In this document: one piece after another, positions 47,511 through 52,280 of the stretch
Position numbering within the stretch: position 1 is the first letter of the stretch
How the letters are laid out: every line of letters starts with the position of its first letter
Source of the DNA: Butyricicoccus sp. Marseille-Q5471
GTDB lineage: Bacteria > Bacillota > Clostridia > Oscillospirales > Butyricicoccaceae
DNA length: 64,000 nucleotides
Reading direction: 5' to 3'
Assembly (NCBI RefSeq): GCF_951230135.1
Contig: NZ_CATNVC010000003.1
Location: 248,001-312,000 of the forward strand
Made by a program: the position numbers and the translations under genes
The notes under the pieces: model-generated
Database searches by the model: none
Told to the model about the DNA's origin: nothing
The model's input: the letters and a program-made list of their open reading frames with translations, nothing else

Positions 47511-48668
47511 TTATTTATAGCTTTCCTGTAAAATTTCAATCACATCATCGCGGGTCAGCTCGCGCGGATCGACGCGGAACAGACCGCCCATCGTGTCGCG
47601 CGCATTGTCGGCATATTTGCCCAGATCGTTGCCGTCTACGCCGTAATCGGACATTTTAAGGCTCGCTACATCGCAGCGCTTTTGCAGGGTGTGCAGCGCT
47701 TCGACGAAGTGCTCAGGTGCAGATGCGTCGGCAAAGCCGAGTGCACGCGCCATTGCGACCATGCGGTCGCCCGAGGAGGCGTAAAAACGCTTCCAGTAGG
47801 CCTGTGAAATCATGATAAGCCCCGCGCCGTGGGGCAGATTCGGGTGGAATGCGGACAGCGCGTGCTCGATGGCGTGTTCGCTCGTGCACGAAGAGAGCGT
47901 CTCAACGAAGCCGGCGAGCGTGTTGGCCAGTGCAACGCTTGCACGTGCATCCTTGTCGCCGCCATCCTGCACAGCGGTCGGCAGAGCCTGTCCAATCAGC
48001 TCAATGGCGCGCAGGCTGAACATTTCGCTCATCGGACTGGAAATGTTGGCCAGCATGCCTTCACAAGCATGAAACAGTGCGTCAAAGCCCTGATATGCAG
48101 TCAAATGAGGCGGAACGGTCATCATAAAGTCGGGATCGACAATAGAAATCGCGGGAAACGTCTTGTCGCCGCCGCCGCCGATTTTCTCCTCGCCGTTGGA
48201 AATAACGGTCCAGGGATCGGCCTCGGTGCCCGTGCCCGCAGTTGTGGTGACGGCAACAAGCGGCAGACCGTCATTCTTGATGCGCTGTCCCTTGCCCGAG
48301 CCGCCGTGGATGTAATCCCACCAGTCGCCGTCGTTGGTCGCCATGATGGAGACCGCCTTGGCGGTATCAATCGACGAGCCGCCGCCCAGACCGACCACGA
48401 AGGAGCATCCCTCGCTCCGGCAGAGCGCGGCGCATTCACGAACGCTTTCAATGGTCGGATTCGGTTGCACCTTATTGTAAACGATGGTTTTGTGCCCACC
48501 CTCAGCGAGCGCATCAGACACCTTGCCGACATAGCCCAGACGGGTGGTCGAGGTGCCGCCGGTGATAATCAGACCCTTGCCTGCGGGCAGCTTTGCGCGC
48601 GCCAGCTTTTTGACCGCGCCCTGGCCGAAAAAGATGCGGGTAGGCATATAAAAACTAAAAATATCCAT
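47511..48668 (-). CDS. Iron-containing alcohol dehydrogenase
   Basis: A 385-residue group III alcohol dehydrogenase related to butanol dehydrogenases. NAD loop FVVGLGGGSSIDTAKAV; AVTTTAGTGTEADPWTVI; metal region QGFDALFHACEGM and SEHAIEHALSAFHPNLPHGAGLIM with the expected histidines. It would interconvert aldehydes and alcohols. ATG with AAGGAGG and its own promoter (TTGCAT, 16, TATAAT). Its promoter region faces the promoter of the large non-coding RNA. Confidence 0.93.
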   Translation of the reverse strand: MDIFSFYMPTRIFFGQGAVKKLARAKLPAGKGLIITGGTSTTRLGYVGKVSDALAEGGHKTIVYNKVQPNPTIESVRECAALCRSEGCSFVVGLGGGSSIDTAKAVSIMATNDGDWWDYIHGGSGKGQRIKNDGLPLVAVTTTAGTGTEADPWTVISNGEEKIGGGGDKTFPAISIVDPDFMMTVPPHLTAYQGFDALFHACEGMLANISSPMSEMFSLRAIELIGQALPTAVQDGGDKDARASVALANTLAGFVETLSSCTSEHAIEHALSAFHPNLPHGAGLIMISQAYWKRFYASSGDRMVAMARALGFADASAPEHFVEALHTLQKRCDVASLKMSDYGVDGNDLGKYADNARDTMGGLFRVDPRELTRDDVIEILQESYK

Positions 48669-48717
48669 AATAAAACCTCCTTAAAAAAAAGAGGGGCATA
48701 CAAACCCCAACGTATTT

Positions 48718-48745
48718 ATTATATCAAATTCAAAGCGTCATGCAA
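48718..48745 (-). promoter_or_regulatory. Promoter of the iron ADH gene
   Basis: On the minus strand TTGCAT, 16 bases, TATAAT preceded by TGA (extended -10). Confidence 0.75.
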
Positions 48746-48814
48746 AGAGGTAAAACGCTGAAAAGAGGTGGAAATACTCGTTTATTTTCACCATAAAAAG
48801 ACATCGAAATACAC

Positions 48815-48843
48815 TTGACGTTGTGCAATATCAATGATATTAT
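48815..48843 (+). promoter_or_regulatory. Strong promoter of the candidate large RNA
   Basis: TTGACG (48815-48820), exactly 17 bases, TATTAT (48838-48843). The start site is predicted near 48850. No ribosome site plus start codon of any credible gene follows. Confidence 0.85.
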
Positions 48844-48849
48844 AAGGGC

Positions 48850-49630
48850 ACAGAAAGAAGAAGGGCAAACACCAAATGCCAAAGCAGGGGCTTTGGAGCG
48901 GGGCGACACCCCAATCATTCTGTAAGACGAAATGAGCTGGCAAAGCAGAAAGGAAGTGAGTCCAATGGTATTAGAAGAAGCGTCCTACCAGTTCGCGGGA
49001 CTCGCTGCGACGCTGTAACCGAAAGAAACGATTCAGGTGATAGCTATTAAAAAACGCGAGTTCCAAGTAACAACCTCGAACCGCCTGCAAAGCATGATCG
49101 GCCTCCGGTAAGTGGGGACGAAACCTCTGGGGAAGCTATCCTCGATTAGACCAATCCTCGTCCAGAGCACAAGACAGAGAATCGCGGATCAAAGCGGCAG
49201 GAAAGCAAGGTTCACGCATGAAAGAACCCGAAGCGCGTCTGCGGAATATGAAATCAAAACACCTGCACCAGACCAAAAATAGTGTTCACCCAGTGGCCGA
49301 TGGGCATACTGATGAGTATGGTGAAGCAAAAGCGAATCAGAGACGGGCAATGAGATGGTATCAAAGGCTCCTGAAAATGATTCGGGTTGATGTACGGTAA
49401 TGACTCGCAAGAAAGAGACGCTGCTCAGCAAAATTTCACATAGAGTTCCCGAATGTAAGAAGGTAATCGAAATCAAGAACAACGAACCGCAGTCGGGCGA
49501 CTCCCGTGAACGATAGGATGCATACAAATCGGAAAAAATTGAATACAAAGAATCAATGTTTCCCAAGGAAAGGAAAACTGCATGGTTCAAAATTAAAGGG
49601 TCCTGTCTGGTGACGGGGCCCTTGTTTTGT
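48850..49630 (+). ncRNA. Candidate large structured non-coding RNA (~780 nt)
   Basis: A transcript is bounded by a strong promoter (48815-48843) and a strong terminator (49596-49630). The sense strand is purine-rich, and its longest sense frame is a 60-codon stretch without family features. Perfect local helices include CCAAAGC-AGGG-GCTTTGG (48879-48896), GGGG/CCCC (48900-48912) and CATACT-GATG-AGTATG inside TTCACC/GGTGAA (49285-49325). Longer-range ones are GTGAGTCC/GGACTCGC (48956 with 48998), TGGTA/TACCA, GATAGCT/AGCTATC (49038 with 49135) and CGAATCA/TGATTCG (49333 with 49378). Size and style recall large ornate RNAs such as ROOL, GOLLD or OLE, but I cannot match its sequence to any of them. 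It lacks RNase P, tmRNA and group I/II intron landmarks. Confidence 0.72.
49596..49630 (+). terminator. Terminator of the large RNA
   Basis: AAGGGTCCTGTC pairs with GACGGGGCCCTT (12 bp with two G-T pairs) around a TGGT loop, followed by TTGTTTTGT. Confidence 0.92.
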
Positions 49631-49633
49631 GCT

Positions 49634-49817
49634 TCGATTGAAAGCATGCTTTCAATCGAGTATTCCGACTCCGAACCGCGCCTTTCAGGCACAATTCTAC
49701 GTCGGTTTGTATAAAAACCGAGGCAGAGCCCCGGTTTTTATGAAATTGCGGGTTCGCAATCTATTTTATGATATGCTGTGACGCAGGCAAAAAGTCAGGC
49801 GCAAGTCCTGACTTTTT
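49634..49817. repeat. Modular hairpin repeat, copy C (after the large RNA)
   Basis: Starts with a TCGATTGAAAGC/GCTTTCAATCGA hairpin, then a block beginning GAGTATTCCGACTCCGAACC that ends in GTCGGTTTGT. Next is an ATAAAAACCG/CGGTTTTTAT hairpin (49711-49741) and a unique stretch. It ends with AAAAAGTCAGG-CGCAAGT-CCTGACTTTTT. Copy D shares the first hairpin plus block nearly letter for letter, with paired changes in the stem. Confidence 0.82.
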
Positions 49818-49848: not shown

Positions 49849-50550
49849 TTACTTTTGCGGTTCGGGCGGCTCTTTTGGTTTTTCCCCCATCATTTGATAC
49901 AGTGCGTCGAGGGCGTCGCTCAGCGTGCCGACCTCGTCAATCAGGCCGGTTTCTACCGCGGTTTCCCCGGAAATAACCGTGCCCACGTCGGCCGTCAGCT
50001 GTCCGGTTTCGCGCATCAGCTCGAGCAGACGGTCAGACTTGATTTTTGAGTGCGAGGTGATGAAGTCAACAATCCGCTCCTGAATTTTTGCGAGATACTC
50101 AAACGCCTGCGGCACGGCGATAATCGTGCCGTTCATGCGCACCGGATGGATGGTCATCGCCGCCGAGGCCGCTATAAAGCTCTTTTTCGCCGCCACTGCG
50201 AGCGGCACACCGATGGAATGGCCGCCGCCTAGTACAAGCGAAACGGTCGGCTTGCGCATGCCCGCGATAAGCTCCGCGATTGCAAGACCCGCTTCCACAT
50301 CACCGCCCACAGTGTTGAGCAAAATCAGCAGGCCGTCAATTTCGTCCGACTGCTCTACCGCCGTAATCTGCGGAATCAAATGCTCGTACTTGGTGGTTTT
50401 ATTCTGTGAGGGCAGTTCCATATGCCCTTCAATCTGCCCGATGATTGTGATACAGTGAACCGTTCCGTGCTTGGTTCTTGCCGTTATCGAACCGGTCTGC
50501 GCAATGCTGTTTTCTTCCGGTGCTTCAATTTTTTCTGTTTCGTCTGCCAT
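49849..50550 (-). CDS. ClpP-class serine protease (TepA/YmfB-like)
   Basis: A 233-residue protein of the ClpP/crotonase fold, similar to translocation-enhancing protein TepA. Core: LLILLNTVGGDVEAGLAIAELI, catalytic Ser in GGGHSIGVPLAVAA, His in AMTIHPVRM, and a later GTVISGETAVETGLIDEVG. An N-terminal acidic extension of about 30 residues is non-conserved. ATG at 50550 with AAGGGAG upstream. It probably degrades peptides at the membrane; partner ATPase not evident. Confidence 0.88.
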   Translation of the reverse strand: MADETEKIEAPEENSIAQTGSITARTKHGTVHCITIIGQIEGHMELPSQNKTTKYEHLIPQITAVEQSDEIDGLLILLNTVGGDVEAGLAIAELIAGMRKPTVSLVLGGGHSIGVPLAVAAKKSFIAASAAMTIHPVRMNGTIIAVPQAFEYLAKIQERIVDFITSHSKIKSDRLLELMRETGQLTADVGTVISGETAVETGLIDEVGTLSDALDALYQMMGEKPKEPPEPQK

Positions 50551-50706
50551 TGCTGCTGCTCCCTTCCTGCAGGATACCCTGCAAACAAAGTGTGCCGCCT
50601 GTGGAAAGGGTTTATACAAAAGCTGACAGAAAATTACTGGGAATATTACAAATCGTAAACAGAGAATTCCCTCATTTCATCGTCTTCGGCAGGGGAATAC
50701 AAGGAG

Positions 50707-52166: not shown

Positions 52167-52170
52167 AAAT

Positions 52171-52280
52171 TCGATTGCAACCACGCTTGCAATCGAGTAT
52201 TCCGACTCCGAACCGCGCCTTACAGGCACAATTCTCCGTCGGTTTGTGTCAAAAACCACGCGCATGTCGTGCTTTTTGAC
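52171..52280. repeat. Modular hairpin repeat, copy D (after GDPD-like gene)
   Basis: Begins 5 bases after the GDPD-like stop with TCGATTGCAACC-type hairpin, then the block beginning GAGTATTCCGACTCCGAACC that ends GTCGGTTTGT, as in copy C. It ends with a TCAAAAACCACG hairpin having the loop CGCATGT, shared with copies A and B. A separate GGAAATAGCAG/CTGCTATTTCC hairpin follows directly (52280-52305). Confidence 0.83.

Follow-up and report, generated by a model that had tools for sequence, protein, structure and literature searches.

A large structured RNA without an Rfam match, and a tiny ORF whose initiation site may join an RNA switch, in Butyricicoccaceae

Introduction

Type I toxin messages show long-distance 5′-3′ pairing, and in the leaders of ermC-type translational attenuators a short leader ORF is accompanied by competing hairpins at the Shine-Dalgarno (SD) sequence and at the stop codon. 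Among larger RNAs, RNAIII of Staphylococcus aureus has 514 nt and 14 stem-loops and encodes delta-hemolysin, and deletion of its 3′ end abolishes the delay in hemolysin translation, according to the available portion of the source (PMC8383071). The available part of another source presents OLE, an ornate ~600-nt RNA of the Bacillota that forms a dimer, together with ROOL and GOLLD, which form cages, are encoded by phages or prophages and often lie near tRNA islands; there, GOLLD, ROOL and OLE are described as poorly understood (PMC12286853). RNA-only homo-oligomers in cryo-EM are a mark of these three RNAs. Few classes of large structured RNA are known in bacteria, and several of them have no known function.

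In a 64,000-nucleotide stretch of DNA from Butyricicoccus sp. Marseille-Q5471 (the window), an original prediction had placed a stand-alone, ornate RNA of ~780 nt without a credible ORF, which might belong with ROOL, GOLLD or OLE or might form a new class. The observation was confirmed, and its interpretation was partly supported. A promoter, a terminator, a covarying fold and homologues bear out a stand-alone structured RNA of this size, and it can be stated with high confidence that this is a real, conserved large structured RNA without a match in Rfam. The RNA is chromosomal and occurs in cultured species, and a concrete mechanism that would link translation to RNA folding is proposed here.

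Results

The RNA gene and its surroundings

The RNA has a length of ~780 nt, and the RNA gene including its promoter covers positions 48815-49627 (Table 1). The TTGACG-17-TATTAT promoter and the 12-bp terminator named in the original prediction are both present. Hardly any variation is seen across the genus in the two hexamers, in their 17-nt spacing or in the first bases of the predicted transcript (CACAGAAA), and the A-rich block upstream of the -35 hexamer is presumably UP-element-like. When 1.3 kb were scanned, 6 promoter-like sites were observed vs 2.0 in shuffled sequences, and 7 terminator-like sites vs 1.5. The RNA gene is present as a single copy in its own genome. A 92-nt repeat was seen just past the terminator (49633-49724) and again 2.5 kb further on (52170-52261), the two copies being 88% identical. 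The genome holds four copies of this repeat (77-100% identity over at least 87 nt) plus shorter partial matches; all four are located on the contig of the window, two of them inside the window.

Table 1. Coordinates of the features at the RNA locus, numbered from the first position of the window
Feature	Position	Strand	Remarks
Iron-containing alcohol dehydrogenase, divergent neighbour	47511..48668	-	PF00465, PF25137; syntenic
A-rich conserved block upstream of -35	48790..48814	+	CCAT-AAAAA in 24-sequence genus alignment
Sigma70-type promoter TTGACG-17-TATTAT	48815..48843	+	Site with at least 9/12 matches upstream in 41/41 homologues tested
Structured-RNA transcript (predicted)	48850..49627	+	Start ~7 nt past -10, end at terminator; conservation starts at CACAGAAA
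Anti-SD strand GGGC-AAA-CACC	48863..48873	+	Can pair with SD strand 48955-48963, genus level
Covarying 7-bp hairpin (helix 3)	48879..48896	+	Double changes in 5/7 pairs
Extended Shine-Dalgarno of ORF1, AAAGGAAGTGAGTCCA	48949..48964	+	Motif also precedes longer ORFs elsewhere
SD strand of candidate switch hairpin	48955..48963	+	Pairs with 48998-49006
ORF1, 17 codons, MVLEEASYQFAGLAATL*	48965..49018	+	16-20 codons in 53/54 homologues; open in 23/23 genus sequences
Closing helix, 5′ strand (ORF1 codons ~10-16)	48991..49011	+	Helix 6, pairs with 49492-49511
Candidate switch strand within ORF1	48998..49006	+	Partner is SD strand or distal strand
Box 2 hairpin domain with invariant GGCCGATGGGCATACTGATGAGTAT	49285..49325	+	Helices 16-18
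Covarying stem region, helices 19-21	49333..49384	+	Helices 19 and 20: 4 double-change pairs each
Closing helix, distal 3′ strand	49492..49511	+	Pairs with 48991-49011
Intrinsic terminator	49596..49627	+	12-pair stem at 49596-49623
Clp-protease-like gene, convergent neighbour	49849..50619	-	PF00574; syntenic in most genus loci

With Rfam 15, nothing in the window reached the gathering score apart from its sole tRNA, which lies 43 kb from the RNA gene, and a scan of positions 48700-49800 at E≤10 returned three sub-threshold hits alone. When homologues were scanned (g5, g9, g10, g12, three members of the genus and the second family described below), no hit above gathering fell on the RNA. The suggested kinship with ROOL, GOLLD or OLE was not sustained, since neither the window nor the scanned homologues gave a gathering-score match and none was found in phage records; the RNA also lies outside the phage or prophage setting near tRNA islands that is described for ROOL and GOLLD. 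The models of RNAIII, raiA and the other Rfam 15 families likewise stayed below their gathering scores, and the idea of a new class was borne out as far as Rfam 15 shows. The RNA was named in no title or abstract start among the literature matches listed (e.g., the best 15 of 1,275). In the accessible part of one human-microbiome study the candidates span 27-219 bp, and the accessible main text contains no Agathobaculum, Butyricicoccus or desmolans (PMC8040213); a fragment of the RNA could be among the candidates of this study.

Distribution within the genus and the family

A BLAST search of 99 genomes detected the RNA in 24 of the 25 genomes of the same genus, its own included (G013 was counted, though the RNA is present there only as fragments at a contig edge), whereas the rest of the family gave 5 matching genomes out of 36 and other families 0 out of 38. 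The sole genus genome devoid of the RNA (G024) is also devoid of a close copy of the dehydrogenase (best identity 49%). A pattern scan of named genomes returned 20 contigs, 18 of them from Agathobaculum, which NCBI taxonomy places in the Butyricicoccaceae, and 2 from Eubacteriales; the matches include the cultured A. desmolans ATCC 43058 and A. massiliense. At the genus loci a dehydrogenase match was observed 5′ of the RNA wherever the flank was readable; in L014 this match is partial. On the 3′ side of the RNA, the Clp-like gene was found except in L020, L022 and L015 (contig end). No match to the RNA was obtained in 50,697 phage records or in plasmid records. Because the neighbours are the same and phage and plasmid records gave no match, the inheritance of the RNA looks vertical. 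One genome (G011) carries two differing copies (L006 and L030) on separate contigs, for which a duplication or a mixed bin is possible.

When a covariance model was built from the 5′ part, it recovered 24 of the 87 genomes of the family, i.e., 23 of the genus and one weak match in g10. Since this model reached almost the genus alone, distant members were sought by pattern and synteny. The family-wide pattern search gave 34 of 87 genomes (reversed control, 0), and the exact box was absent from ten other genera of the family in this search; a dehydrogenase search detected no close copy in the 17 genomes from these genera that it covered. Four further genera (g5, g9, g10 and g12), found by family and order-wide patterns and by a look upstream of the dehydrogenase, share with the home genus the design of promoter, CACA-like start, box 1 and ORF1, for g9 and g10 in those genomes that could be resolved. 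Apparent RNA lengths range from 328 to 352 nt among five sequences of g5 and from 501 to 764 nt among five of g9. Its neighbours vary between genera, and in g10 it adjoins, by ORF reading, a D-Ala-D-Ala-ligase-like gene (L131, L134) or an asparaginase-like gene (L184).

Fold and covariation

RNAalifold yielded 121 pairs in 21 helices from 23 genus sequences, with 97.4% of the cells paired, and this value fell to 35.5-40.4% when the partners were slid by 1-3 columns. Changes on both sides were observed in 31 pairs, located in 11 of the 21 helices, whereas 500 shuffles averaged 11.0 such pairs (sd 2.3) and never reached 31; these shuffles ignore relatedness, so that the independence of the covariation is overstated. 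The extensive, covariation-backed structure that marks a large ornate structured RNA was thereby found.

The helices that had been predicted by eye differ in what the alignment says of them. Those at 48879-48896 and at 49333 with 49378 (helix 19) covary (Table 1), and the pairing of 48956 with 48998 is real and constitutes the key hairpin, which contains the SD. At 49285-49325 the outer stem (helix 16) covaries, and the inner stems (helices 17 and 18) are invariant in the genus. The strands of the helix at 49038 with 49135 are nearly invariant in the alignment, and hence covariation does not speak either way. A 4-bp core is all that is conserved of the GGACGA/TCGTCC pairing (paired in 21, 22, 23 and 21 of 23 sequences), and the CTCTGG/CCAGAG pairing is not conserved, so that the pseudoknot that had been proposed from both is left without support.

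Helix 6, with 19 pairs (97.2% of the cells paired), 3 of which have double changes, closes a domain of ~500 nt. The anti-SD helices 1 and 2 are paired in 97.8% and 98.9% of the cells with zero covariation, and the window has a C-A mismatch at one pair. The box 2 pattern was seen in 3 of 169 genera sampled of the order, and it was not found in viral contigs. Box 2 was also considered as an ORF (MGILMSM...), but in L100 both arms are altered from CAUAC/GUAUG to CACAC/GUGUG, a change that swaps two amino acids and keeps the helix, and this ORF was therefore rejected.

ORF1 and its ribosome-binding site

The statement that no credible ORF is present had to be given up, because a 17-codon ORF with a near-ideal ribosome-binding site (ORF1) lies within the RNA. 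The most conserved box (box 1), approximately GAAAG(N)GGUGAGUCC(N)AUGG, can be understood as an extended SD together with a start codon. Across 54 sequences from seven genera and two families, ORF1 has 17 codons in 33, 16-20 codons in 53 and 24 codons in one. With 16 representatives, not all of them independent, shuffled downstream sequence gave 16-20 codons about 9-12% of the time in every case. In the genus, ORF1 is open in 23/23 sequences; its length is 17 codons except in one sequence, where it is 20, and the codon variants among the 22 ORF1s of 17 codons were 10 synonymous vs 19 non-synonymous. A codon test of 271 windows in all frames gave no strong signal, the ORF1 windows being among the best (p about 0.07-0.15), and the codon-type substitution pattern of a protein-coding gene was not found for the RNA as a whole. 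Relative to one reference, the 23 genus sequences carry 133 distinct indel events, of which 29 are a multiple of three and none starts within ORF1. From the codon test and the indel pattern, the RNA outside ORF1 looks non-coding, and what appears to be preserved in ORF1 is an open frame of the right size, and less clearly a peptide. Between genera the peptide sequence is poorly conserved and, by reading, not hydrophobic-looking. A conserved small ORF in a structured RNA, which together with translation of the ORF and target regulation by base pairing characterises a dual-function RNA, was thus found for frame and length, not for peptide sequence. Another candidate, ORF2 (SEFQ...NRLKSAIGF), was rejected, its ATG being missing in several genus members; several short ORFs occur in series within the RNA locus.

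Box 1 has the look of a functional start site, because longer ORFs in L076, L080, L081 and several viral contigs begin with this motif too, and the micro-ORF is probably translated, a conclusion held with fair confidence. On its own, the box-1 motif was detected in 17 viral contigs, mostly ahead of phage ORFs and often ahead of longer ones. In L076, L080 and L081, which belong to Agathobaculum-genus genomes, the box is GAAAGGGGTGAGTCCCATGG, and the longer ORF that it starts contains HHG...YDHS and is HD-like by reading. All five g10 loci examined have 3-5 copies of box 1 in a row, each opening a mini-ORF (MGR* and MG* being the shortest); these arrays (L130, L131, L132, L133 and L134) consist of near-identical ribosome-binding sites within one apparent RNA gene. 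Two g9 RNAs (L153 and L154) have a GGACACCTCCTTTTT stretch, which we take to resemble the 3′ end of 16S rRNA, and which could pair with their own ribosome-binding site.

A second family with the same design

Among 394 genomes of the order, the pattern GTGAGTCC-N-ATG-N(20-40)-GRCTCRC matched 27 and its reversed control none; 26 of the 27 belong to the home family and one (G368) to another family, and a slightly altered pattern matched 2 of 391 genomes of a class-wide sample, both in the home family. A looser pattern applied to the family of G368 gave 3 of 300 genomes, with matches in G368 (L165), in G607 (L186) and at L185; the L185 match sits inside a long ORF and was discarded as chance. Both L165 and L186 are intergenic; each has TTGACA-17-TATAAT or -TATACT, its box 1 is followed by a 17- or 18-codon ORF, and its end resembles a terminator. 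BLAST with the L165 RNA detected 15 of 29 genomes of its genus, and the box was readable in 12 loci. A homology of the RNAs of the two families is suggested by the common design and motif, not by full-length similarity, and the families may share one ancestral RNA or just this design. L165 adjoins a DUF1292 gene (PF06949), with 6S RNA beyond, and L186 has a similar ORF. A 6S RNA (RF00013) is located on the strand opposite the RNA gene in 13/13 second-family loci scanned (L165, L186 and 11 others), two of which overlap in one genome.

A candidate switch at the initiation site of ORF1

In 53 of the 54 sequences, no fewer than 7 of 8 pairs can form between the SD strand (8 nt before the start) and the ORF1 strand, and 8/8 in 42, where the partner strand is the best in its window, 41 home-family sequences were picked by a strand-containing pattern (no tried locus failing) and some homologue sets were picked by patterns that hold the motif or the partner strand. 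The two sides of this hairpin vary together, pair 7 being U-G, U-A or C-G and the outer pair G-C or A-U by lineage; the outer pair is unpaired in 21/54. When the end of ORF1 was tested for pairing energy with the downstream sequence, at most 1 of 100 dinucleotide shuffles was as good in 24 of 41 sequences. By genus, the test was passed in 19/22 sequences of the home genus (the closing helix is not significant in the other 3), in 4/6 of g9 (not in 2), in 1/2 of g12 (not in 1), in 0/6 of g5 and in 0/5 of g10; with the sequence of the window, 0/100 shuffles were as good as the closing helix. For 11 of the 13 second-family sequences, all but L190 and L191, the folding energy predicts that the ORF1 end forms a local hairpin at the stop codon (-10.8 to -19.4 kcal/mol), and in the distal test at most 2 of 100 shuffles were as good in just 2/13. 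The switch strand thus has a distal partner in most Agathobaculum sequences and some relatives, and a local hairpin in most second-family sequences. When SD accessibility was modelled for RNAs ending 120 nt before the 3′ end (110 nt in a few) and for complete RNAs, it rises with completion in 5/5 genus sequences, falls in 3/3 of g9 and in one of g12, and is mixed in two of g5.

A translational switch has just this arrangement, in which a single strand has two mutually exclusive predicted partners and the ribosome-binding site is covered in one of the two pairings. We hold a translation-linked switch to be plausible, with moderate confidence.

Discussion

The reading that we favour, to which we give a slightly better than even chance, is that the gene stands alone and encodes a new class of large structured RNA, which also carries a tiny ORF with an initiation site that takes part in an RNA switch. 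The RNA would be transcribed on its own and ORF1 would be translated, its initiation being limited by the SD hairpin, and the partner that the switch strand takes would decide whether the SD is free. A ribosome crossing ORF1 would open the closing helix of the large domain, so that ribosome traffic on ORF1 would be coupled to the fold of this domain, which, as a guess that follows the RNAIII-like logic of dual-function regulatory RNAs, might then act in trans on partners. With a conserved mini-ORF behind an apparent RNA switch, the RNA may serve as a large regulator that is itself under the control of ribosomes. The sequence of the ORF1 peptide is probably secondary, because the amino acids vary while the ORF length and the initiation site are kept. 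A more specific proposal, which we put forward only tentatively, is a fast-diverging class of ribosome-gated RNAs of gut Clostridia, in which ORF1 would sense ribosome availability or translation speed and the passage of ribosomes would set the domain closed or open. With such gating the amino-acid sequence of the short ORF would hardly matter, and the array of 3-5 start sites in one genus would point to ribosome engagement itself as the function.

The size of the RNA and the density of its covarying helices would also suit a purely non-coding ornate RNA that, like OLE, ROOL or GOLLD, serves as a scaffold or forms an RNA-only complex, and in which the ORF1 region is kept for structure and is not usefully translated, and the same holds for the lack of any window with codon-type selection and for the 29/133 indels in threes. 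However, ORF1 retains its start, stop and length across seven genera, no indel of the 23 genus sequences starts in it, and its motif precedes real-looking ORFs elsewhere, and we consider this explanation rather doubtful. If instead the RNA were the mRNA of a functional peptide of ~17 aa (a signal, toxin or regulator), with a fold that merely controls translation, it would be comparable to type I toxin messages with their long-distance 5′-3′ pairing, and the sequestration of the SD, the long-distance pairing of ORF1 and its strongly kept length would be accounted for. A peptide that is poorly conserved between genera and not hydrophobic-looking does not agree with this, a covarying body of ~500 nt seems excessive for a 17-aa product, and the g10 mini-ORFs shrink down to MG*; hence a peptide message is, in our estimation, unlikely.

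A leader-peptide-like ORF with competing hairpins would also be expected if the RNA were a riboswitch or attenuator that acts in cis, as the leader of a gene further downstream. This is a disfavoured explanation, and a very improbable one, since the RNA ends at its own terminator, a convergent Clp-like gene lies downstream in most genus loci in place of a regulated same-strand gene, and the neighbours differ from genus to genus. As for a decayed protein gene or the remnant of a mobile element, the several short ORFs in series might recall one, but the covarying structure speaks strongly against it, the indels are not mainly in threes, and the single copy in its own genome, the synteny and the lack of a phage or plasmid match make it scarcely credible.

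When the RNA is set beside the known systems, ermC-type leaders are alike in their short ORF and in the competing hairpins around the SD and the stop codon; unlike them, no regulated downstream gene was seen here, and ORF1 precedes a large structured RNA. OLE is similar as an ornate ~600-nt RNA of the Bacillota, and ROOL and GOLLD are similar as large ornate stand-alone RNAs of unknown function, as far as described in the available part of the source (PMC12286853). The RNA analysed here differs from OLE in giving no match to its Rfam model, and from ROOL and GOLLD in its conserved chromosomal place, in the lack of a match in phage records and in the distance of 43 kb to a tRNA. RNAIII would be the closest working analogue: the RNA of the window lacks a match to it in Rfam, and its ORF1 has 16-20 codons of unrelated sequence, but both are large, many-stemmed, stand-alone RNAs with a tiny ORF, the translation of which, in what is available on RNAIII (PMC8383071), is not simply coupled to transcription.
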